From Candidatus Giovannonibacteria bacterium RIFCSPLOWO2_02_FULL_43_54 (GTDB taxonomy: Bacteria; Patescibacteriota; Minisyncoccia; UBA11713; 2-01-FULL-45-33): DNA of 36,636 nucleotides. The notes below the pieces were generated by a model. The model worked only from the letters and a program-made list of their open reading frames with translations. It made no database searches and was not told the origin of the DNA. Numbering within the stretch: the first letter of the stretch is position 1; each line of letters begins with the position of its first letter. The position numbers were made by a program, and so were the translations under genes. This document shows positions 5,922-36,261 of this stretch, one piece after another. The stretch spans positions 1-36,636 of the forward strand of contig MFIK01000045.1 of assembly GCA_001778875.1 (NCBI GenBank), read 5' to 3'.

Positions 5922-7457
5922 CTATCCGCCGTGGTAGCTCAGTGGTAGAGCAGACGCCTGAAGAGCGTCGTGTCGGGTGTTCGATTCACCCCCGCGGCAC
6001 CAGTTGGGAAAAGACAAGTCAGGGGAAGTCGCCTCCCCTCGCTCGGCGACCAAATCATACGGCGTTTTGGGCGAAAATTTGAACTGGCGGTTTTCTAAAA
6101 TATGGTTCGAGCCGATGTTTTTCAGAAATGTTGTCATTTCCGCTTTGTTTTCCGTTTCGATCAATTTTGCGGCTTGATGTAAGGATAAAATGAACTCACG
6201 AGCCGGTTCGAGCCAAGACAAACCCCTTTGCTCAATGTCAGCAATTTTTTCAGAAAGCGCGCCCTTTTGGAAAAGCAGACTTTGCTTTTTGGCGGCATAT
6301 TCTTCTGTGGATAAGGCATCAGCAAGGTAGACATCTAAAAGCTTTTGCAGTTTAGCCTCAATTGTTTCTAACTGCCTTTTTAACGTGCCGATCTCGGCTT
6401 GTGAATCTTGTCGCGCCTTGTCCTGTTCGCTATCCAATACCGCCAAAACTTTCTCTGTATCTTGGCTCGACAAAGAAACTTTTTGAAGAAAACTCTTGAT
6501 TTGATCGGTTAGCATCTCTTCTCTTAAAAAATGTTTTTCTTTGCATAGCCCTTTCTTTTTCGTGCAACGATAGTAAATAAATCCTTTTTGTGTTTCTGCG
6601 GTAATCGAAGCACCACACTTGCACTTCATTAAACCAAGAAAAGAAAAATTATGTTTTCTGATCTCTTTTTGCTTGCCTCGCTTACTCATCACTTCTTGGC
6701 ATGTATCAAAAAGTTTCTTTGAAGTTAACGGCTCGTGAGCTCCCTCAAAAATTTCCCCGCGATATTTCATGAGGCCAGTGTAGAAAATATTTTGTAAAAT
6801 TTTGTAGACCGTGTTAATGGACATCTCTTTATCAAGATTTCCTCTTAGATTATTTTCCTTGCACCAATTTGCGAGAGAATGAAGCGTATATGCTCCGGTG
6901 GCGTACATTTCGAACATTCCCCGAACCTTTAGGGCTTTATCGTGATCAATATCTATTCCACGAGTTTTCAGATTATTCGTGTAGCCAACCGGAGCCCAGC
7001 CGGGCCATACGCCATTCCGTATCTTTTGACGCAATCCTCTTTTCACATTCTCTCGCAAATTATCTACAAAATATTTCGATTGGCCGAACGCGATATTCAA
7101 CATAAACAAGCCTTGCGGTGTTGGTTCAAACCAGAACGTAGGAAATTTTAATGATTTAATCAAGCCGCGATCTACAAAGTAAATTATTTTTCCTCCGTCT
7201 ACCGAATTACGCGCGAGACGATCCGGATGCCATGAGATAATTCCATCTGCTTTCCCTTTCTCTAAAAATGACAACATTTCTGCGAATTTAATTCGCCCAG
7301 GTTCTTTGGCAGTTTTGGTCTCGACAAAAGTCGGACCGACAATTTCAAGTTTTTCTTTGGCGGCAAATTCCCTTAACTCAAAAATTTGGGCTTCAATGCT
7401 CAAAACCTGCCTATCTTCGTCCTCGGTGCTCTTTCGAGCGTATATCACATATCTCAT
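5922..7457 (-). CDS. Large serine recombinase whose C-terminal codons run through tRNA-Phe
   Basis: A 511-residue site-specific recombinase. The N-terminal resolvase domain has the YARKST motif with catalytic S10 and the downstream DRLARN motif. The central recombinase domain is followed by a zinc-ribbon of Cys pairs (MKCKCG...YYRC...C), a coiled coil at about 335-400, and a C-terminal tail. The last ~28 codons are antisense to tRNA-Phe, ending LPLSYHGG, so the frame is shaped by integration at the tRNA. The gene body is bracketed by 99-bp inverted repeats (5997-6095 and 7503-7601), the left one inside the reading frame. Both families of flanking fragments further right derive from this gene. 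It probably catalyses integration and excision at the tRNA 3' end. It could be only recently silent or still active: no disabling mutation is visible. Confidence 0.9.
   Translation of the reverse strand: MRYVIYARKSTEDEDRQVLSIEAQIFELREFAAKEKLEIVGPTFVETKTAKEPGRIKFAEMLSFLEKGKADGIISWHPDRLARNSVDGGKIIYFVDRGLIKSLKFPTFWFEPTPQGLFMLNIAFGQSKYFVDNLRENVKRGLRQKIRNGVWPGWAPVGYTNNLKTRGIDIDHDKALKVRGMFEMYATGAYTLHSLANWCKENNLRGNLDKEMSINTVYKILQNIFYTGLMKYRGEIFEGAHEPLTSKKLFDTCQEVMSKRGKQKEIRKHNFSFLGLMKCKCGASITAETQKGFIYYRCTKKKGLCKEKHFLREEMLTDQIKSFLQKVSLSSQDTEKVLAVLDSEQDKARQDSQAEIGTLKRQLETIEAKLQKLLDVYLADALSTEEYAAKKQSLLFQKGALSEKIADIEQRGLSWLEPAREFILSLHQAAKLIETENKAEMTTFLKNIGSNHILENRQFKFSPKTPYDLVAERGEATSPDLSFPNWCRGGESNTRHDALQASALPLSYHGG
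5928..6002 (+). tRNA. tRNA-Phe (anticodon GAA), integration site
   Basis: The cloverleaf has acceptor GCCGTGG/CCGCGGC (one T-G wobble), D-arm GCTCAGTGGTAGAGC, anticodon stem GACGC/GCGTC with loop CTGAAGA (anticodon GAA), T-arm with GTTCGATTC, discriminator A, and an encoded CCA. The 3' end GCACCA starts a 99-bp sequence repeated inverted at 7503-7601, and a degenerate match (GCACCAG then GGAAAAG) occurs at 10529-10546. This is what is expected of a recombinase attachment core at a tRNA 3' end. The whole gene lies antisense inside the recombinase frame. Confidence 0.95.
5997..6095. repeat. IR1-left, 99-bp inverted repeat flanking the recombinase
   Basis: Matches the reverse complement of 7503-7601 over 99 bp with one mismatch. 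It starts with the tRNA 3' end GCACCA and encodes, on the minus strand, the recombinase tail from about QFKFSPKTPYD to FPNWC. The two copies have equal length, so inverting the segment between them would keep the recombinase frame and exchange only the residues after WC. Confidence 0.95.
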
Positions 7458-11227: not shown

Positions 11228-12742
11228 ATGTTCATGGCGCAGATCAAAGAAGAAATAGGGAAAATAGTGGGCGACGAGATTGTCTTTTCGGTCGAGCGGC
11301 CGGAAGATCCGGAGCATGGCGATTATTCGTCCAACGTCGCCTTGGTGCTCTCTAAGAAAGAAGGTAAAAATCCAAAAGAAGTCGCGGAGCGCATTAAAGA
11401 CCAACTTGGAAGCTCGGCTTCCAAGTTCGGATTTTTAGAGAAAGTTGAGGTTGCAGGACCGGGATTTCTGAATTTTTTTCTTGCAAAAAAAGCTCTAATT
11501 CAGGCACTTGGAAACCCGGTTTCCAAGTTAACAAAAAAGCAGAAAATTAATATCGAATTTGTTTCGGCAAATCCAACGGGGCCTTTGACGATGGCCAACG
11601 GCAGGGGGGGCTTTTACGGGGACGCGCTCGCGAACATTTTTGAGGCCTTGGGCCACAATGTTACGCGCGAATACTATATTAATGATGCGGGGAACCAGAT
11701 AAAGCTTTTGGGCGAGAGCATTTTAGCGGCGGACGGAAAGATTCCCCCGCGCGAAGAATTTTATAAAGGAGAATATATCAAAAAATTAAAAGGAAAAACG
11801 GCAAAGCAAGCGACCGCAATTTTACTGAAAGAAATTAAATCATCTCTTAAAAAAGCAGGCGTTAAATTTGATGTTTGGTTTTCGGAAGATAAAAATTTGC
11901 ACAAAAAAGGCGAACTCAAAAAAGTTCTTGAATTTTTGAACAAAAAACACGCAATCAAAGAGAAAGAAGGCGCGTTGTGGTTGGGAGATGCCGTTGTAAT
12001 TAAATCTGACAAAAACCCGACATATTTTTTGGCTGACCTCGCGTACCATTATGATAAATTCATAAAAAGAAAATTTGATATCGCGGTAGATGTCTGGGGA
12101 GCGGACCACCACGGTTATATAGAAAGGATGAAAAATGGAGTTGAGGCGATTGGAGTTTCGCCTGACCGGCTAAAAATAATAATAATGCAGCTTGTACGTT
12201 TGGTTTCCGGCGGAAAAGAAGTTAAAATGTCTAAGCGCACAGGAGAATTTGTTACGCTTGATGAATTGTTAAAAGATGTCGGGGTTGATGCGGTGCGGTG
12301 GTTTTTTTTGGAACGGAGCCCGAATACACATATGGATTTTGATATGGATTTTGCAAGGGAGCGGTCAAAGAAAAATCCCGTATACTATGTTCAATACGCG
12401 CACGCGAGGGCGTGTAGTATTTTGAGGAATGGTAAGCAGGTCAAATTTAGGACATCCGATGTCCAAATATTAAAAGAGACAGAAGAACTTGCGCTTATCA
12501 AAAAAATTCTCCAGCTTCCGGAAATTATCGAGGATATTGCAAGTGATTATCAAGTACATCGCCTGACACGCTATGCTTATGAGTTTGCACAGACTTTCAC
12601 TAATTTTTATGAGAAGCATTTGGTAATTGATAAAAAAAACAGGGAGCTCACGCAAGCCCGCCTTGCTTTGGTGTTTGCCACAAAAAAAACTTTAAAGCAA
12701 ACGCTCGGTTTAATGGGAATTTCGGCTCCCGAAAAAATGTAA
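11228..12742 (+). CDS. argS: Arginyl-tRNA synthetase with altered HIGH motif
   Basis: Class I synthetase of 504 aa charging tRNA-Arg. The N-terminal tRNA-binding domain is followed by the catalytic core with [16 protein letters not shown]. The usual HxGH signature here reads T121-M-A-N124, lacking both histidines. KMSKR is intact at 333-337, and the C-terminal DALR anticodon-binding domain is present with its usual arrangement. [14 protein letters not shown] and [10 protein letters not shown] are the expected ArgRS signatures, so the identity is secure. Two 23-25-bp palindromes (11403-11427 and 11506-11528) lie in frame in the N-terminal part and encode LGSSASK and LGNPVSK. TACATT at 11215-11220 lies 7 nt before the start and there is no SD, so initiation is probably leaderless. 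rdgB follows 4 nt after the stop. Confidence 0.95.
11403..11427. repeat. In-frame palindrome in argS, family A
   Basis: AACTTGGAAGC-TCG-GCTTCCAAGTT: a perfect 11-bp stem with 3-nt loop, read as QLGSSASKF. It shares outer arms and reading frame with 11506-11528 and with 35355-35377 in leuS. Confidence 0.95.
11506..11528. repeat. In-frame palindrome in argS, family A, second copy
   Basis: ACTTGGAAAC-CCG-GTTTCCAAGT: a perfect 10-bp stem, read as LGNPVSKL, in the same phase as the copy 103 bp upstream. Confidence 0.95.
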
Positions 12743-12746
12743 ACTT

Positions 12747-13283
12747 ATGCCGCTCTATTTTATAACCGGAAATAAAAATAAATTTAACGAGGTAAAATCA
12801 GTTTTACCGGATATTGAGCACTTGGATATGGATTTGCCGGAAATTCAGGATGTCGACGCGCATAAAGTTGTAAAAGCAAAGCTATTGTCCGCGTTTGAAC
12901 ATAAAAAGGGAGAATTTATTGTCGAAGATACGAGCCTGTATCTGGATTGCTTAAATGGTCTGCCTGGGCCATTGGTTAAGTGGTTTCAAAAAACTATTGG
13001 AATAGAGGGAATCGCGGATTTGGCCGAAAAATTCGGCAATGACGGAGCTCTGGCAAAAACAGTGATCGGATACGCAAAAAATCCGGAAGAGATATATTTT
13101 TTTGAAGGAGCGGTTTCCGGAACAATCGTTCCGCCGATAGGAGAGCATAAATTCGGCTGGGACCCGATATTTCAGCCTGATGGGCATACAAAAACTTTCG
13201 CGGAAATGGATGATGAAGAAAGAATGTCCCTCAAAATGCGCCGCATCGCCACGTTGAAATTGAAAGAATTTTTGGATATTTGA
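12747..13283 (+). CDS. rdgB: RdgB/HAM1-type non-canonical purine NTP pyrophosphatase
   Basis: A 178-residue member of the Ham1/ITPase family, which hydrolyses dITP, XTP and similar nucleotides to monophosphates and so keeps damaged bases out of DNA and RNA. It begins with the signature [28 protein letters not shown] matches the conserved active-site segment (VxDxSGLxVxALxGxPGv/i), with the acidic residues kept, and [11 protein letters not shown] matches the late motif. The length is slightly short for the family but complete. It lies 4 nt downstream of argS and probably shares its transcript. The start ATG is preceded by no clear SD. Confidence 0.9.
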
Positions 13284-13954: not shown

Positions 13955-14338
13955 ATGAAAGGTTTGTCTTTGGATTTTTTGATGCTGCTCATAGGCAACA
14001 TTTTTCTGTACCAGATATTTTTTTGGCTGATCGATGTTCCTGGCACAAAGAAGCTTCTTGGCTTGCAGACGGATTCATTGTGGCTTTATACTGCTTATTT
14101 TTCGTTTATTTCCATGTTTGTCGCATACCCGGCTGTTTATTTGATCCATATGGCAATTGTACGGCAGTCATTGGTAAATATTGATGTAAAAGTAATTGTG
14201 ATGTTGATATGGCTTGCTAATCCGGTTGCTCTCTTTATTTCGGAATATTTCAACCGCGGCCAGTTGAATTTATCTCTACGGGTTGTAATTGGATTTTTAC
14301 TCATGGCCGCGGCGCAAGTTGTGATGCGCTGGAAATGA
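13955..14338 (+). CDS. Hypothetical four-helix membrane protein
   Basis: A 127-residue, very hydrophobic protein. Likely helices are at about 5-26, 41-68, 76-93 and 104-123, with short loops VPGTKKLLGLQTDS and SEYFNRGQLNLS. There are no soluble domains and no recognised motif. A TGCTAGGTT box (about 13925-13933) upstream could be the promoter. No SD is visible. The overlapping frame 13906-14184 is a shadow. The stop is followed within 11 bp by an intrinsic terminator (14349-14371). With 13337-13507 and 13605-13904 it forms a run of three small membrane-protein genes. Confidence 0.6.
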   Translation: MKGLSLDFLMLLIGNIFLYQIFFWLIDVPGTKKLLGLQTDSLWLYTAYFSFISMFVAYPAVYLIHMAIVRQSLVNIDVKVIVMLIWLANPVALFISEYFNRGQLNLSLRVVIGFLLMAAAQVVMRWK

Positions 14339-14348
14339 AAATTTTAAG

Positions 14349-14371
14349 CCTACCATCGGGTAGGTTTTTTT
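14349..14371 (+). terminator. Intrinsic terminator before ileS
   Basis: CCTACC (14349-14354) and GGTAGG (14359-14364) with loop ATCG, followed by seven Ts. It ends the membrane-protein unit and excludes the upstream in-frame ATG at 14335 as the ileS start. Confidence 0.85.
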
Positions 14372-14379
14372 GTTATACT
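14371..14379 (+). promoter_or_regulatory. Extended -10 box giving a leaderless ileS mRNA
   Basis: TGTTATACT, a near-consensus extended -10 element, ends 6 nt before the ATG at 14386. Transcription would start at or within a base or two of the start codon. No SD is possible in so short a leader. Confidence 0.6.
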
Positions 14380-14385
14380 TTCATC

Positions 14386-17300
14386 ATGTTTAACGAAGAA
14401 GAAATACTCAGTTTTTGGAAGAAAAATAAAGTTTTTGAAAAATCCGTGGAGCAAAGGAAGTCCCGACGCGGAGGCCGAGATAAAACCAAAAGTTTTATTT
14501 TTTTTGAGGGGCCTCCGACCGCCAACAATGTTCCTCATATGGGACATTTTGAAACGCGCGTTTTTAAAGACATTGTTTTGCGCTTTAAAACAATGATTGG
14601 TTTTTACGCGCCCCGAAACGCCGGATGGGATACGCACGGATTGCCGGTTGAGGTTGAAGTGGAAAAAACGCTGGGTCTCCGGAATAAAAAAGAAATAGAG
14701 GCCTATGGCGTTGCCGCGTTCAATAGGATGTGCCGCGAATCTGTTTGGAAATACAAGGGTATTTGGGAGAAGATGACTGAAAGGATGGGCTTTTGGATAG
14801 ATATGGCGCATCCATATATTACTTATGAAAATTCGTATATCGAAGCGCTTTGGGGTATTGTCAAAGAATTTGCCAAAAAAGAATTGCTATATGAAGATTT
14901 CAAGGTTTTGCCGTGGTGCGCGAGATGCGGTACGGCGTTGTCTTCGCACGAACTTGCGCAAGGATATGAGAAGGTGCGCGAAAACTCCGTTTTCGTCAAA
15001 TTTCCAATTTCCAATTCTCAATTTCCAAATTCATATTTTCTTGTATGGACCACAACTCCTTGGACGCTTCCCGGCAACGTCGCTTTGGCTGTAAATCCGA
15101 AAATTGATTATGTTTTTGCAAAAAATGAAAACGAAATTTTAATATTGGCCGAGTCCCGCATTTCGGTTTTGGACGAAGGCTACGAAGTTATTAAAAAAAT
15201 AAAAGGAGCGGAACTTGTTGGTAAAAATTATGAAACACTTTATCCTGTCTCCGACATATGGCGTACGGCTTATGGCGTATTCGCGGGGGATTTTGTTTCA
15301 ACCGAAGACGGCTCGGGAATTGTGCATATTGCGCCCGCATTCGGGGACGACGACTTTCAGCTTTCTAAAAAATTTAACCTGCCGGTACTTTCTACGACGG
15401 GTCAGGACGGCCTGATGAAAACACCGGGGTATGATTGGAACGGCGGATGGTTCAAGAAAGCCGACAGGCTTATAATAGAGGACCTCAAATCAAGACATTT
15501 GCTTTTTAAAGAAGAACCATACGAGCACGACTATCCTTTTTGCTGGCGGTGTAAAAATCCGCTTATGTATCTGGCGAGAAAATCCTGGTGGGTGGACGTA
15601 AATAAAGTAAGAGGAGAACTTTTGAAAAATAATCAGACTATCCATTGGTATCCTGAACACATCAAAGACGGCAGATTCGGCGAATGGCTGAAAGAAAAAA
15701 AGAACTGGGCATTTTCCCGCGAACGCTATTGGGGGACGCCGTTGCCTGTTTGGAGATGCGGTAAATGTTCAAAATGGGAAGTCATCGGTTCGCTTAATGA
15801 GCTGCAAGAAAGAGGAATGACAAGCGGAAACAAATATTTTATCATGCGGCATGGAGAGGCGGAAACCAACGTGAAAAATATTACCAATTGTTCTTTAGAA
15901 AAAAATCTTTATCATCTTACCCAGAAAGGTAGAAAACAAGTTGAGGAAACTATAAAGATGATGCAGAAAAAAAAGATCAAGCCGGACTTGATCTTTGCGT
16001 CCCCCTTTTTAAGAACAAAAGAAACCGCTGAAATGGCGGCCGAGCAGCTAGGAGTTTCAGCCGAAAATTTTAAATTTGATCCGCGTCTCGGCGAAGTAGA
16101 TACCGGGATTTTTGCGGAAGGAGACCTCAATAAATATCATGTTTATTTTAAGAATCAGCTTGAAAAATTTATGAAACAGCCTCCGCAAGGAGAAACCTTA
16201 ACTCAATTAAAGATGCGCGTGTTTTCCGCTATCTCCGAAATAGAATCGCGCTATCAAAATAAAACTATACTTATAGTAAGCCATGAATATTCTTTATGGA
16301 TGCTTTGGACGGCGCTCGAAGGCAAGACCAATGTGGAATCGACAGAGGAGCACGTGAAGAGAAAATGGGAGTTTTTAAAAACGGCGGAATTTGAAAAAGC
16401 GGAATGTTTGAATATTCCGCGCGGCGAAGACCTGGTTTTGGACATGCATAAGCCCTACATTGACGCCGTTAAATTGAAATGCGCGTGCGGAGGCGAAATG
16501 AAAAGAGTTCCCGAGGTTTGCGATGTTTGGTTCGACTCCGGTTCAATGCCGTTTGCAAGCAATCCGCCCGGTTTTCCGGCAGACTATATTGTTGAAGCAA
16601 TCGACCAGACAAGAGGATGGTTCTACACGCTTCTCGCGGTTTCAACTCTTCTTGGAAAAGGCGCGCCGTACAAAAACGTAATATCGCTTGGACACGTGCT
16701 GGACGCAAAAGGCAAAAAAATGTCAAAGTCACTTGGTAATGTTGTGGACCCAATGAAACTTATTGAAAAATACGGCGCCGACGCAGTGCGCTGGTATTTC
16801 TTTACGGTAAACCAGCCATGGGATTCAAAATTGTTCAATGAGGCCGACGTAAAAGATGCCTCGCGCAGATTTTTCGTGATACTTTGGAATATTTTACAAT
16901 TCCACAAGCTTTATGCCGTAAGCCGTAAGCCGTATGGCATAAAGCCTAAGGCGAAACTTCTGATCAATCGTTGGATTTTATTGCAGCTCAACGAAGCGGT
17001 TGGCGCAGTTACGCGCAAACTTGATATCTATGACATTATTGGCGCCGCCCGCGATCTCGAAAATTTCGTTGTTGAAGATGTTTCAAGGTGGTATGTGCGC
17101 AGAATCCGCGATGTAATGAAAGAGGACTCAAAGGAGACGAAAGAGACAAGCGTCGTTTTGGAATATTTGCTCGGTGAAATTTCAAAACTTTTGGCGCCAT
17201 TTGCTCCATTCATGGCGGAGAAGATTTGGCTGGAGCTTTGGAATAAGGGAAGTGTTCATTTGGAGGATTGGCCCAAGCTTCGTGGGAAAACACTCGGTGT

Positions 17301-17817
17301 TAAATCCCCAAAAACACCGAGTGTTGAGGGGCGAAGCTTGCTAGGAAATATGACCGAAGTTCGCCGCATTGTCGGCTTGGCGTTGGAAGCCAGACAGAAA
17401 GCTGGTGTAAAAGTAAGGCAGCCGCTCTCTTTGCTGAAAATCCGAAATCCGAAATCCAACCCGCCTGCCGGACGGGCAGGAATCCGAAATAATATGGAAT
17501 TGATAAATTTAATTAAAGAAGAAATCAACGTCAAAAACATAGAATTTGATCTGAAGCTTGAGGACGAAGTCCGGTTGGATACCGTAATTACTCCGGAGCT
17601 TCATGAAGAGGGAATCGTCCGTGACCTTATCCGCGAAATTCAGGCGGCAAGGAAAACCGCAGGCTTAAAACCGAAAGACAAAGTTTCGGCAATGCTTGAA
17701 TTGCCGAAAGAAATATTTGAAACTGCCAAGAAATATGAAAAAGTTCTGGCCAAGGAAACGAATCTGGAGTCCGTCAAAATCTCGGAAGCTGGCGCCGTAA
17801 AAATATCGCTAAAATAA
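14386..17817 (+). CDS. ileS: Isoleucyl-tRNA synthetase with inserted histidine-phosphatase domain
   Basis: A class Ia synthetase charging tRNA-Ile. It has 1143 aa, more than the ~900-1050 usual. HMGH is at 51-54, the editing domain has WTTTPWTLPGN and GTG-like GSGIVHIAPAFGDDD motifs, KMSKS is at 778-782, and the anticodon-binding domain follows. After the catalytic RYWGTPLPVWRCGKC segment a complete histidine-phosphatase (phosphoglycerate-mutase-like) domain is inserted at about 478-660. It has R488-H489-G490-E, R543 in SPFLRT, E570 and the second catalytic His in V631-S-H633-E. The synthetase chain resumes at DLVLDMHKPYID with KCACGGEMKRVPEVCDVWFDSG. All phosphatase active-site residues are kept, so it is probably functional. 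Several in-frame repeats add further insertions (15001-15032, 15257-15284, 16908-16945, 17274-17340, 17438-17490). The 14386 ATG is chosen because of the terminator and -10 box just upstream. Confidence 0.95.
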   Translation: MFNEEEILSFWKKNKVFEKSVEQRKSRRGGRDKTKSFIFFEGPPTANNVPHMGHFETRVFKDIVLRFKTMIGFYAPRNAGWDTHGLPVEVEVEKTLGLRNKKEIEAYGVAAFNRMCRESVWKYKGIWEKMTERMGFWIDMAHPYITYENSYIEALWGIVKEFAKKELLYEDFKVLPWCARCGTALSSHELAQGYEKVRENSVFVKFPISNSQFPNSYFLVWTTTPWTLPGNVALAVNPKIDYVFAKNENEILILAESRISVLDEGYEVIKKIKGAELVGKNYETLYPVSDIWRTAYGVFAGDFVSTEDGSGIVHIAPAFGDDDFQLSKKFNLPVLSTTGQDGLMKTPGYDWNGGWFKKADRLIIEDLKSRHLLFKEEPYEHDYPFCWRCKNPLMYLARKSWWVDVNKVRGELLKNNQTIHWYPEHIKDGRFGEWLKEKKNWAFSRERYWGTPLPVWRCGKCSKWEVIGSLNELQERGMTSGNKYFIMRHGEAETNVKNITNCSLEKNLYHLTQKGRKQVEETIKMMQKKKIKPDLIFASPFLRTKETAEMAAEQLGVSAENFKFDPRLGEVDTGIFAEGDLNKYHVYFKNQLEKFMKQPPQGETLTQLKMRVFSAISEIESRYQNKTILIVSHEYSLWMLWTALEGKTNVESTEEHVKRKWEFLKTAEFEKAECLNIPRGEDLVLDMHKPYIDAVKLKCACGGEMKRVPEVCDVWFDSGSMPFASNPPGFPADYIVEAIDQTRGWFYTLLAVSTLLGKGAPYKNVISLGHVLDAKGKKMSKSLGNVVDPMKLIEKYGADAVRWYFFTVNQPWDSKLFNEADVKDASRRFFVILWNILQFHKLYAVSRKPYGIKPKAKLLINRWILLQLNEAVGAVTRKLDIYDIIGAARDLENFVVEDVSRWYVRRIRDVMKEDSKETKETSVVLEYLLGEISKLLAPFAPFMAEKIWLELWNKGSVHLEDWPKLRGKTLGVKSPKTPSVEGRSLLGNMTEVRRIVGLALEARQKAGVKVRQPLSLLKIRNPKSNPPAGRAGIRNNMELINLIKEEINVKNIEFDLKLEDEVRLDTVITPELHEEGIVRDLIREIQAARKTAGLKPKDKVSAMLELPKEIFETAKKYEKVLAKETNLESVKISEAGAVKISLK
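15001..15028. repeat. Heptamer repeat TTTCCAA x4 in ileS
   Basis: Four tandem 7-nt units (the third reads TTCTCAA), encoding about FPISNSQFPNS in the editing domain just before the conserved WTTTPWT motif. Confidence 0.85.
15257..15284. repeat. Heptamer repeat in ileS, reverse of the GCCRTAA type
   Basis: TATGGCG-TACGGCT-TATGGCG-TATTCGC. Reversed, the units read CGCCATA and AGCCGTA, matching the GCCGTAA and GCCATAA heptamers at 16915 and 35896. It encodes WRTAYGVF before the conserved FVSTEDGSGIVHIAP segment. Confidence 0.6.
16908..16945. repeat. Palindrome enclosing heptamer repeat GCCGTAA x3 in ileS
   Basis: GCTTTATGCC (16908-16917) pairs with GGCATAAAGC (16936-16945). The loop consists of tandem GCCGTAA units (16915-16935). 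It is read in frame as KLYAVSRKPYGIKPKA. Confidence 0.9.
17274..17340. repeat. Nested 67-bp palindrome in ileS
   Basis: Outer arms CAAGCTTCG (17274-17282) and CGAAGCTTG (17332-17340) enclose inner 13-bp arms AACACTCGGTGTT (17289-17301) and AACACCGAGTGTT (17313-17325). It is read in frame as about KLRGKTLGVKSPKTPSVEGR in the anticodon-binding region, between LEDWP and the TEVRRIVGLALEAR helix. Confidence 0.95.
17438..17490. repeat. Heptamer AAATCCG x3 plus CCTGCC/GGCAGG palindrome in ileS
   Basis: Tandem AAATCCG units (17438-17458), then CCTGCC (17464-17469) pairing with GGCAGG (17475-17480), then another AATCCGAAAT. It encodes KIRNPKSNPPAGRAGIRN in frame. The palindrome is of the same GC-rich type as the intergenic one at 9009-9022. 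Confidence 0.9.
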
Positions 17818-32715: not shown

Positions 32716-35700
32716 ATGATTCCATATGATCATAAAAAGATAGAAAAGAAGTGGCAGAGGTTTTGGGAGCAAAAAAAACTCTACAAAACTTCCGACAGCG
32801 CGGAAGAAAAGGATAATTTTTACGCTTTGGTTGAGTTCCCGTACCCTTCGGGTAATTTGCATACCGGGCATTGGTATGCTTTTTCTGTACCGGACATTTT
32901 TGTGCGAAAAAAAAGAATGGAAGGAAAAAATATTTTATTTCCCATCGGGTTTGACGCTTTTGGATTGCCGGCGGAGAATGCCGCGATAAAACGCGGGTTC
33001 GACCCGAAAAAATGGACATATGAAAATATTGATTATATGCGACGCCAACTTCGGTCCATGGGCGCGTCTTTTGACTGGAGCCGTGAAGTTATTACCGCGG
33101 ATCAGGAATATTATAAATGGACGCAGTGGATATTTTTGCAGTTTTTTAAAAAAGGATTGGCGTACCGGGCGGAAACCGCGGTCAACTGGTGCCCGAAAGA
33201 CAAAACCGTGCTCGCGAATGAACAGGTTGCAGCAGGTAAATGCGAAAGATGCGGAGCGGAGGTTGAGCAGAGGCAAATGAGACAGTGGATGCTCCGAATC
33301 ACGGATTACGCCGAGAGATTGCTTTCAGGTTTGGATAAACTGAACTGGAAAGACGAAATTAAGCAGGCGCAAAGGAATTGGATAGGAAAAAGCGAGGGCG
33401 CAGAGATTGAGTTTGAAATTAAAAATGGCATAGCATCGTCTTACGTGTTGCTTCATGGATATACCGGTTCTCCAAATGATAACTTTTTTCCGTGGCTTAA
33501 AAAGACACTGGAAAATCGGGGCGCAAAAGTTTATGCGCCAAAATTACCGAATACAGATGACCCGCGCGTCTATGATCAAGCGGCAGAAGTTTTGAAATCT
33601 GTGCCGTTTAATAAAGATACTGTTATTGTCGGCCATAGTTTAGGGAGCGTTGTTGCGTTAAAAATAATTGAACAGCTAAAAGTGCCTGTTAGGAAAACAA
33701 TAATAGTAGCCGGTTTCACTGAAAATAAATTTATAGACGAGCCGTTTGAAGTGCACACATTTGACTGGAAATTTAATGTGAAAAAAATCAGACAAAATGC
33801 CGGCAAAGTCTGTATTTTGAGAGACACAATTGATGATGTGGTGCCGCAATTTCAGGCTGAAAACATAAAAAAATTAATTGGGGGTAAAATATTTGATTTC
33901 ACCGCTTCAGAGCCGCATGCTTCCGGAAAAATAGAGCCAGAAATTTTAAGACACTGTATTGATTCTGTCCGTGTTTTCACTACGCGACCCGATACGCTAT
34001 TCGGGGCAACATATGTGGTTTTGGCTCCGGAGCATGAGCTTGTACAGAGTCTAGACTCTAGAATCGAGAATTTAGAAGAGGTAAAAAAATATATCGGAGA
34101 AGCCAAAAGGAAAACTCCGTTACAACGACAACAAGAAACCAAAGAAAAAACGGGAGTTGAGTTAAAAGGTGTTAAGGCGATAAATCCCACAAGCAAAGAA
34201 GAGATTCCGGTCTGGATTGCGGATTATGTTTTGTCGGGCTACGGGACCGGCGCAATAATGGCAGTTCCCGCGCACGACGAACGCGATTTTGAATTTGCTT
34301 CGAAATTTGGTCTGCCGATAAAACATGTGGTTATTCCTTCGGTGGTTGATCACGTAAATCCTCCCCGGCCCGATAAATCCTCAAAGACAAGAATTAATGT
34401 GCACGCATTGGTCTATGATCCGGTAAATAAAAAATATTTGATAATTAGAAACAAAAAATTCGGCTGGGACACAGTTGTCATCGGTGGGGTGGAAGAAGGC
34501 GAAAAAGCGATCAGCGCGGCACTCCGCGAGCTAATGGAAGAAACCGGCTATGTTGACCTGGAATTTAAACGGATTTTGGGAGGGCCGGCGAAAGCGGTGT
34601 ATTTTGCGAAGCATAAAGATGAAAATAGGATAGCAATTACAACCGCGGTATATTTTGAATTAAAAAGCGATAAGCGCGTCGCAATAGCTGAAGATGGAGA
34701 GAACGAAGGAAATGAAATATTGTGGATAGACGCCAAGGATTTTGTCCCAGGAAAAATGGTCAATTCCGAATTGCCTTATTGGTTGGAAAGATTAAAGGCC
34801 GGGACGAATATGGCGTATGCGGGTAATGGGGCGTTAATTAATTCCGGAAAATTCGAAGGAATGGATTCCGAAGATGCTAAGAAAAAAATAACAGAATTTG
34901 TCGGAGGGGAAATTAAAACTCAATATAAGCTTCGCGACTGGGTGGTTTCGCGCCAGCGCTATTGGGGCGTGCCGATACCGATAATTTATTGTGAAAAATG
35001 CGGAGTATCTGCCGTGTCTGAAAAAGATCTGCCGGTTAAATTACCTGATATAAAAGATTATTTGCCGACAGGAGAAGGCAAGTCGCCATTGGCCAAGGCA
35101 ACTAAGTGGCTAAGCGTTAAGTGTCCGGTATGTGGAGGAAATGCTGAAAGAGAAACAGACACTTTGGACACGTTTGTGGATTCTTCATGGTATTTCCTCC
35201 GATATTGCGATCCGAAAAATAAAAAAAGTTTTGCCGATGCAGAAAAAATGTCGGCATGGATGCCGGTTGACCTTTATTCGGGGGGGGCGGAGCACACAAC
35301 CATACACCTTTTGTATTCGCGTTTTTGGTACAAAGCAATGTATGATTTGGGCTTACTTGGCGGCGAAGCCGCCAAGTTGGGAGACCCGTCTCGCCTAGGC
35401 GAAGCCGAGGCGGATGAGCCGTATAGTGAGAGAAGAAATCGAGGGATAATTTTGGGGCCGGATGGGCAGAAAATGTCCAAATCCAAGGGTAATGTCATAG
35501 ACCCGGATGAATATGTTGCAAAGTTCGGAAGCGACACCGTACGTATGTATTTAGCGTTTATCGGCCCATACAGCGAGGCTGGCTCATACCCATGGGACCC
35601 GCACGGCATTTTGGGAATACGCCGATTTTTGGACAGGGTGTGGGCGATGGCGAGCACAAAAAATTTGCTGAAGGCAGAGGTTTTTCAAGACTTTTCGCAG

Positions 35701-36261
35701 CGTGACGGCGCGAGACTTAGCAATTCGCCAGCAGGCGAATATGCGGGTCTTGAAAAATCTGCTGCTGAGGCAAGTATTGTACGAACCATAAACAAAACAA
35801 TCAAACAAGTTTCGGAAAATATTGAGGATTTTAAATTTAATACTGCGATATCGGCGATGATGATTTTATTGAATGAAGTGGAGAAACAGTCTGATGCCAT
35901 AAGCCATAAGCAATATGTCGAGTTTCTCAAAATCCTTGCTCCGTTTGCACCGCATTTAACCGAAGAAATTTGGCAAAAAATGAACAAGTCCGCCAAAGGC
36001 GGACCAGCCAAGGGCTGGAAATCAATCCATTTGGAAAAATGGCCGGAATATGATCCGAAGATGCTGGAAGAGGAAAATTATGATCTTGTTGTCCAGATAA
36101 ACGGCAAAACGCGCGACAAATTCAGCGTGTCGGTAAATATTTCGCAAAGCGAAGCCGAGCACTTGACTTTAGCGCGTGAAAAAGTTAAACTTGCGCTAGA
36201 CAATAAACAACTGCGAAAAATTATTTTTGTGCCGAAACGGCTCATCAATATCGTGGTTTAG
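32716..36261 (+). CDS. leuS: Leucyl-tRNA synthetase with inserted alpha/beta-hydrolase and Nudix domains
   Basis: Charges tRNA-Leu. It has 1181 aa, against ~800-870 typical of bacterial LeuRS. HTGH is at 49-52, KMSKS at 919-923, and editing-domain landmarks are TRPDTLFG (423-430) and GTGAIMAVPAHDERD (to 524). Between WIGKSEGAEIEFEI and VRVFTTRPDT, about 237-415, is a complete RBBP9/YdeN-like serine hydrolase: HGYTGS (from H247), nucleophile S308 in GHSLGS, Asp in RDTIDD and His in SEPHAS. Between LPIKHVVIP and ALINSGKFEG, about 542-700, is a complete Nudix domain. Its box runs from G590 to Y612 (GGVEEGE, then RELMEETGY). All catalytic residues of both are kept. Palindromes add small insertions at 35355-35412 and 35988-36004. 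The function of the fused enzymes is unknown; clean-up of misacylation or adenylate by-products is inference. No SD before the start. Confidence 0.95.
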   Translation: MIPYDHKKIEKKWQRFWEQKKLYKTSDSAEEKDNFYALVEFPYPSGNLHTGHWYAFSVPDIFVRKKRMEGKNILFPIGFDAFGLPAENAAIKRGFDPKKWTYENIDYMRRQLRSMGASFDWSREVITADQEYYKWTQWIFLQFFKKGLAYRAETAVNWCPKDKTVLANEQVAAGKCERCGAEVEQRQMRQWMLRITDYAERLLSGLDKLNWKDEIKQAQRNWIGKSEGAEIEFEIKNGIASSYVLLHGYTGSPNDNFFPWLKKTLENRGAKVYAPKLPNTDDPRVYDQAAEVLKSVPFNKDTVIVGHSLGSVVALKIIEQLKVPVRKTIIVAGFTENKFIDEPFEVHTFDWKFNVKKIRQNAGKVCILRDTIDDVVPQFQAENIKKLIGGKIFDFTASEPHASGKIEPEILRHCIDSVRVFTTRPDTLFGATYVVLAPEHELVQSLDSRIENLEEVKKYIGEAKRKTPLQRQQETKEKTGVELKGVKAINPTSKEEIPVWIADYVLSGYGTGAIMAVPAHDERDFEFASKFGLPIKHVVIPSVVDHVNPPRPDKSSKTRINVHALVYDPVNKKYLIIRNKKFGWDTVVIGGVEEGEKAISAALRELMEETGYVDLEFKRILGGPAKAVYFAKHKDENRIAITTAVYFELKSDKRVAIAEDGENEGNEILWIDAKDFVPGKMVNSELPYWLERLKAGTNMAYAGNGALINSGKFEGMDSEDAKKKITEFVGGEIKTQYKLRDWVVSRQRYWGVPIPIIYCEKCGVSAVSEKDLPVKLPDIKDYLPTGEGKSPLAKATKWLSVKCPVCGGNAERETDTLDTFVDSSWYFLRYCDPKNKKSFADAEKMSAWMPVDLYSGGAEHTTIHLLYSRFWYKAMYDLGLLGGEAAKLGDPSRLGEAEADEPYSERRNRGIILGPDGQKMSKSKGNVIDPDEYVAKFGSDTVRMYLAFIGPYSEAGSYPWDPHGILGIRRFLDRVWAMASTKNLLKAEVFQDFSQRDGARLSNSPAGEYAGLEKSAAEASIVRTINKTIKQVSENIEDFKFNTAISAMMILLNEVEKQSDAISHKQYVEFLKILAPFAPHLTEEIWQKMNKSAKGGPAKGWKSIHLEKWPEYDPKMLEEENYDLVVQINGKTRDKFSVSVNISQSEAEHLTLAREKVKLALDNKQLRKIIFVPKRLINIVV
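34046..34059. repeat. 14-bp palindrome in leuS
   Basis: AGAGTCTAGACTCT, read as QSLDSR just after the editing-domain APEHEL segment, a point of variable length in LeuRS. Confidence 0.6.
35355..35377. repeat. In-frame palindrome in leuS, family A
   Basis: ACTTGGCGGC-GAA-GCCGCCAAGT: a perfect 10-bp stem, read as LGGEAAKL. It has the same outer arms and the same reading phase as the two argS palindromes (LGSSASK, LGNPVSK). Confidence 0.95.
35392..35412. repeat. Second in-frame palindrome in leuS
   Basis: CGCCTAGGC-GAA-GCCGAGGCG (one mismatch), 14 bp after the family A copy and with the same GAA loop, read as RLGEAEA. Together the two add about 18 residues before the EPYSERRNRG segment leading to KMSKS. 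Confidence 0.85.
35896..35916. repeat. Heptamer repeat GCCATAA in leuS
   Basis: GCCATAA-GCCATAA-GCAATAT, in frame as AISHKQY in the anticodon-binding domain. The unit is one base different from GCCGTAA at 16915 in ileS. Confidence 0.7.
35988..36004. repeat. In-frame palindrome in leuS, family B
   Basis: GTCCGCC-AAA-GGCGGAC, read as SAKGGP. The core TCCGCC-nnn-GGCGGA is shared with metG 29736-29750. Confidence 0.9.

Follow-up and report, generated by a model that had tools for sequence, protein, structure and literature searches.

An RBBP9-type serine hydrolase nested in the CP1 editing domain of a patescibacterial leucyl-tRNA synthetase

The window, by which we mean the whole stretch of 36,636 nucleotides analysed here (Candidatus Giovannonibacteria bacterium RIFCSPLOWO2_02_FULL_43_54, contig MFIK01000045.1), carries a leucyl-tRNA synthetase (LeuRS) gene that is laid out as follows.

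32716..36261 (+): leuS, composite leucyl-tRNA synthetase of 1181 aa (single open frame; TIGR00396; AlphaFold2 model)
32716..33423 (+): LeuRS catalytic core, part 1, with H49-x-G-H52, and the first CP1 strand (PF00133 at 12-222; core HMM mapping)
33424..33960 (+): inserted RBBP9/YdeN-type alpha/beta serine hydrolase, aa 237-415 (PF06821; 1uxo/RBBP9 profile; model; lower GC)
33454..33459 (+): His247-Gly248, the HG motif on the oxyanion side (His in 38/39 of the LeuRS-borne clade)
33637..33639 (+): Ser308, predicted nucleophile, in GHSLGS (Ser in 56/56 synthetase-embedded hydrolases; invariant in the main clade)
33832..33834 (+): Asp373, predicted catalytic acid, aligned to RBBP9 Asp138 (Asp or Glu in 52/56 embedded copies)
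33916..33918 (+): His401, predicted catalytic base (His in 55/56 embedded copies, the remaining one being a gap; invariant in the main clade)
33961..34338 (+): CP1 editing domain, middle part, with the motifs TTRPDTLFG and VPAHDERD intact (PF13603 at 416-543; motif conservation table)
34339..34803 (+): Nudix hydrolase domain, the second CP1 insert, aa 542-696, with the Nudix box at G590..G611 (PF00293, 50.8 bits; the same site holds Nudix in most relatives)
34804..36261 (+): end of CP1, second half of the catalytic core (KMSKS 919-923), anticodon-binding and C-terminal domains (TIGR00396 at 697-1181; PF08264)

The product is a bacterial LeuRS by profile TIGR00396 (E 1.5e-291; 969 bits versus a cut-off of 548), has both class I signatures (HTGH 49-52 and KMSKS 919-923), and is predicted to charge tRNA(Leu) and to edit. 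The clear LeuRS identity and continuous frame claimed in the original prediction, which was made from the sequence alone, are thus borne out. A whole-protein AlphaFold2 model (pLDDT 85.5) retained the LeuRS fold around the insert, with a Z score of 43 to Thermus thermophilus LeuRS.

Residues 237-415 match the Ser_hydrolase family PF06821 (38.9 bits as a domain and 34.6 in the whole protein; cut-off 22), and the nearest solved proteins by sequence are Bacillus subtilis YdeN (PDB 1uxo; E 2e-12; profile E 1e-24) and human RBBP9 (profile E 1e-15). When the domain was folded alone with seven relatives using AlphaFold2 (pLDDT 91.1, pTM 0.90), the top structural matches of the model were the same two proteins, YdeN at Z 24.7 and RBBP9 at Z 23.6-23.9 over 172-175 residues, with the next folds at Z 18. 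Sequence profiles and structure prediction therefore agree with the original prediction that a complete RBBP9/YdeN-like hydrolase occupies this part of LeuRS, and confirm a compact alpha/beta hydrolase fold that matches both family structures. Alignment to 1uxo and RBBP9 places Ser308, Asp373 and His401 at the Ser-Asp-His positions of PF06821. The HG oxyanion motif, the nucleophile, the Asp and the His that had been read from the sequence were upheld by this alignment, the acid being Asp373, and from the alignments and superpositions we infer that the three residues assemble as a triad. The full hydrolase fold, with its triad, is conserved in many lineages.

The hydrolase splits CP1 (PF13603) behind its first strand, in the order ..WIGKSEGAEIEFEIKN / hydrolase / CIDSVRVFTTRPDTLFG.. 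along the chain. The domain had been placed within the LeuRS editing region, which is correct, and just ahead of CP1, which is not, as it lies inside CP1, in the first beta-hairpin after WIGKSEGAEIEFEIKN. The same CP1 is split again by a Nudix insert absent from the original prediction. This domain (aa 542-696) begins 126 residues past the hydrolase and matches the Nudix box GX5EX7REUXEEXGU from G590 to G611, except that the final position is Tyr612 and not an aliphatic residue. Nudix is also found at this LeuRS site (window 34339-34803) in most of the Patescibacteria examined and in LeuRS of Bacilli (L047-L060).

Despite both insertions, the CP1 editing residues of the window LeuRS (TTRPDTLFG, VPAHDERD) are intact, and the same is true of essentially all hydrolase-bearing LeuRS, where the odd rows resemble alignment shifts. 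The CP1 motifs by themselves would predict editing without the insert. Compensation by the hydrolase for lost CP1 editing was consequently rejected. An intein or other selfish element was likewise rejected, since the insert is a standard hydrolase and Pfam scans gave no splicing or endonuclease signature.

LeuRS frames of relatives were mapped onto a core model built from compact LeuRS. Patescibacterial LeuRS was found to have four recurrent insertion sites, at which the inserted enzyme family varies with the lineage. At site 1 (core column about 240) the RBBP9-type hydrolase is present in many lineages, but genomes G002 and G641 have HAM1 there, and G112 and G165 have Nudix. Site 2 (about 370) is mostly occupied by Nudix, the exceptions being the hydrolase (G057, G217, G488 and G165), HAD (G619) and, in other genomes, a small domain left unnamed. 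Hydrolases or an unnamed domain of ~132 aa occupy site 3 (about 440), and HAM1 occupies site 4 (about 650) in family f40. Within the window's own genus, site 1 holds the hydrolase (G000), is empty (G001) or holds HAM1 (G002). In family f40, HAM1 lies inside LeuRS in 11/11 HAM1-bearing genomes, with an additional free copy in only one (G217), and HAM1 was detected in 14/14 control genomes; as the HAM1 of this family is almost exclusively found inside LeuRS, the synthetase there simply houses another enzyme.

Several further arrangements were seen at these sites. The LeuRS of G002 (L118) has its HAM1-like domain at site 1, and free HAM1 was not found in that genome. Two LeuRS of ~1355 aa (L113 in G057 and L134 in G217) bear three inserts, namely the hydrolase, the unnamed ~132-aa domain and, between the catalytic core and the anticodon domain, HAM1, and the LeuRS of G619 (L185) combines a site-2 HAD phosphatase with a site-3 hydrolase. 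An ASCH identity for the ~132-aa site-3 insert was suggested by an ETRALNPEE motif, but no Pfam or PDB match was found and the domain was left unnamed. A ~120-aa domain with a PGFWNEY-type motif at site 2, also without a Pfam match, is common to Patescibacteria and Chloroflexota (L142, L144, L043, L070-L072). The window itself has a free HAM1 gene (12747-13283) directly behind that of ArgRS (11228-12742), and a large serine recombinase with Resolvase and Recombinase domains is encoded at 5922-7457 on the minus strand.

When 90 hydrolase domains were placed in a tree, a single clade (support 100/99) united 39 copies from LeuRS, 35 of them at site 1 and four at site 3, and excluded all 28 free copies; this main clade was not seen free or in another host. 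The ValRS and IleRS copies and several LeuRS copies fall outside it, and their placement elsewhere in the tree indicates several further captures. On the LeuRS core tree (quick search), the presence of the main clade needs about 20 changes, so the module has moved between LeuRS genes; a single vertical gain was rejected on this count although the hydrolases form one clade. The LeuRS core of the window is 83% identical to that of G001, which is without the hydrolase, whereas the window hydrolase is 64% identical to that of G173, a member of another family whose LeuRS core is only about 50% identical. Core columns 241-280, which adjoin the insert, likewise resemble G173 more closely. The two ends of the insert are joined in frame, with a joint like that of G173, and the insert has a GC of 0.385 (GC3 0.335) between flanks of 0.44-0.45. 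These comparisons show that the window hydrolase came by recombination from a distant LeuRS, through conserved leuS flanks, which explains the mismatch in identity between core and hydrolase, the affinity of columns 241-280 and the lower GC of the insert.

A GC below that of its flanks, in a draft genome fragmented into 47 contigs, might also be expected if the arrangement were an assembly chimera or an annotation artefact. We consider this extremely improbable and rejected a chimera, since the same in-frame arrangement occurs at the same site in many independent genomes, and since the reading frame and the G173-like joint are preserved at the ends of the window insert.

Within the 39-member clade only 5/178 columns are invariant, including Ser308, Gly310 and His401, and the commonest residue of the median column has a frequency of 0.49. 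The dN/dS ratio was 0.07-0.13 in the three hydrolase pairs with dS below saturation. The near-invariance of Ser and His, together with these low ratios, shows that the domain is selected as an enzyme, and speaks against a dead passenger. The triad thus does not vary freely among relatives, so the predicted hydrolase survives this comparison; the exception is a four-member group at another site, site 3, which accounts for the four Asp losses among the 56 embedded copies. The hydrolases of this group (L176, L177, L178 and L183; family f170) keep Ser and His without the catalytic Asp, and their activity may be changed. The original prediction had also allowed for a passenger tolerated at a surface loop. 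Tolerance is supported by the unrelated enzymes found in the same synthetases, whereas a dead passenger is contradicted by the retained triad and the purifying selection.

That the four members of this f170 group keep the domain though the catalytic Asp is lost, and that different domains of like size fill the same site, would be expected if the domain were kept for its fold, as a spacer or as a docking surface steering CP1 movement, tRNA binding or partner binding. We regard this explanation as unlikely, because a scaffold would not keep a nucleophile elbow, and Ser and His are invariant in 39 copies that have otherwise diverged to the extent given above. Close relatives, moreover, have no domain at site 1.

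Profile searches covered 379 genomes drawn from the phylum and 366 drawn from the class, with some genomes in both draws and the weak matches cut from the listing. Among the matches listed, 52 hydrolases lie in frames of at least 700 aa, and 51 of these are inside LeuRS (44), ValRS (5) or IleRS (2). Host identity was confirmed by reading the frames, with the exception of G248, for which a CP1 match next to the hydrolase, in an equally long frame, gave the assignment. The remaining long-frame match among those listed (L190 in G545) has an RBBP9-type hydrolase between two glycosyltransferase domains in one frame. RBBP9-type hydrolases are borne by the ValRS of family f40 and of G155, the latter with an added histidine phosphatase, and the IleRS of G281 and G641 bear both the hydrolase and a histidine phosphatase. 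Free copies of the PF06821 family are common in both genome surveys without any synthetase, and they remain in about 9/35 genomes with the embedded form; strict replacement of the free copy by the embedded one was therefore set aside, as it would be only partial.

The IleRS of the window carries an inserted enzyme as well, which was absent from the original prediction.

14335..17817 (+): ileS with an inserted enzyme, 1160-aa frame (PF00133, PF08264, PF19302 and PF00300 in one frame)
15838..16329 (+): histidine phosphatase domain in IleRS, aa 502-665 (PF00300, E 2.8e-26)

A histidine phosphatase is also present in 11/12 long IleRS from other genomes of the class (five identified by Pfam and the other six by the RHG motif alone), and the twelfth has Nudix. 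In the class, 96/118 IleRS frames of at least 900 aa are at least 1095 aa long, which suggests that an insert of about this size is present in most IleRS of the class. MetRS, a class Ia synthetase without an editing CP1, was used as a control; its frames, of ~330 to 583 aa, had no insert-sized extension.

This host range bears on what the hydrolase does. It could be a dedicated second proofreader that works alongside CP1 and hydrolyses the aminoacyl esters which LeuRS makes and on which CP1 acts poorly. Its targets would be misacylated tRNA(Leu) with the 3' end swung over to the hydrolase, or else small esters such as escaped aminoacyl-AMP, the amino acid being Leu, Ile, Val, norvaline or Phe. 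The synthetase hosts among the matches listed are exactly Leu-, Ile- and ValRS, all of which have CP1 editing, the domain was captured by Leu-, Ile- and ValRS on several separate occasions, and none was found in MetRS. Valacyclovir is a valyl nucleoside ester. RBBP9, the nearest characterised relative of the insert, is named as the valacyclovir-activating enzyme in the title of a 2020 paper in the reference list of PMC7730578. RBBP9 traps Leu/Ile, Phe, Tyr and Trp on an active-site residue, requires a free alpha-amine and hydrolyses free-amine hydrophobic aminoacyl groups, and the authors of that work consider that it probably acts on hydrophobic amino acids in amide, ester or thioester linkage (PMC8866121). 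This hydrolysis was seen for RBBP9 only and is putative for the insert, for which the clearing of wrong aminoacyl esters in cis, as raised in the original prediction, would by analogy be chemically plausible.

Several observations weigh against a proofreading role. HAM1, Nudix, histidine phosphatase, HAD and other domains occur in the same hosts and are unconnected with aminoacyl esters, the CP1 motifs are without relaxation, and free copies of the family are common without a synthetase. In addition, the hydrolase has no fixed position relative to the synthetic site or the CP1 pocket: it occupies sites 1, 2 and 3 in LeuRS and lies elsewhere in ValRS and IleRS. We thus hold a dedicated second proofreader, the main rival explanation, to be possible but doubtful. 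The wider proposal that in several independent events Leu-, Ile- and ValRS of Patescibacteria adopted an RBBP9-type serine hydrolase, within or beside CP1, to serve as a second centre for proofreading hydrophobic aminoacyl esters is put forward equally tentatively. That the domain is simply tolerated at a surface loop is no less likely than the clearing of wrong aminoacyl esters in cis.

The explanation that we prefer, while granting it about an even chance of being right, is that a live, self-contained aminoacyl-type hydrolase rides on LeuRS as a chassis. Building on the computed presence, fold, family, conservation, recombination and host range of the domain, we make the following proposals for its substrate, its independence from CP1 and its benefit. 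The hydrolase would fold and work alone on the surface of LeuRS, alongside CP1 and without needing it; this independent action is an assumption of the chassis explanation. As for RBBP9, its substrates would be hydrophobic amino acids with a free amine, bound in small esters or amides. Once nested, it would be expressed like an essential gene, share the copy number of one and be as safely inherited. The repeated use of the Leu-, Ile- and ValRS in this phylum would come from the ability of CP1 and its neighbouring loops to take compact domains whose ends lie close together, and this would also be why Nudix, HAM1, histidine phosphatase and HAD are found in the same hosts. The sharing of hosts with these enzymes favours general tolerance. 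However, the near-confinement of the RBBP9-type long-frame matches listed (51/52) to the three aliphatic editing synthetases, with MetRS lacking an insert-sized extension, is more selective than plain tolerance would predict. The occurrence of the main clade at LeuRS sites 1 and 3, and neither free nor in any other host seen, similarly hints at a tie to LeuRS and counts against the chassis explanation.

Aminoacyl-tRNA synthetases with extra domains are known. Searches of the open-access literature turned up no description of LeuRS with hydrolase or Nudix inserts, or of IleRS with a histidine phosphatase. Within that literature, an apparently active enzyme nested in an editing domain and exchanged between leuS genes by recombination is new, as is, across a phylum, the carriage of other hydrolases by Leu-, Ile- and ValRS. 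These reduced bacteria may have a second hydrolytic checkpoint in their editing synthetases, or essential synthetases may carry house-cleaning enzymes; as an example of the latter, the synthetase is the only place where HAM1 was detected in nearly every genome of one family.

The closest known systems are RBBP9 (PDB 2qs9/7oex/9fcr), YdeN (PDB 1uxo) and PF06821, which have the same fold as the insert (rmsd 1.9-2.3 over 172-175 residues) and share with it the nucleophile elbow, the Asp and His positions, the HG motif and the compact size. They differ in that RBBP9 and YdeN are free proteins of ~190 aa with 21-24% identity to the insert, which is nested in LeuRS. The alignment shows no conservation of RBBP9 Glu108, the residue that holds the substrate amine, and the RBBP9 pocket residues F140-L141 align to V-V in the insert. 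The LeuRS CP1 (PF13603) is also an inserted ester hydrolase, and the host domain here is a normal CP1 with its editing residues; unlike the insert, CP1 has neither an alpha/beta hydrolase fold nor a Ser-Asp-His triad. The LeuRS editing-domain family is described as insertion-exclusive, with no case as host, in a 2026 survey of domain insertions (PMC13114784), whereas the CP1 described here hosts two enzymes.

Extra catalytic domains on synthetases provide a second comparison. The MetRS of Mycoplasma penetrans, likewise from a reduced genome, has an N-terminal aminotransferase domain; a section heading of that paper calls the domains functionally independent, and its abstract leaves neutrality undecided (PMC7694997). 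The MetRS case differs from the window LeuRS in that the domain is added at a terminus and not nested, and in that the added enzyme is a transaminase producing the cognate amino acid. IleRS with an N-acetyltransferase domain, which has its own family model (NCBIfam NF040702), is also a class Ia synthetase with an extra enzyme domain, although both the enzyme and the host are different.
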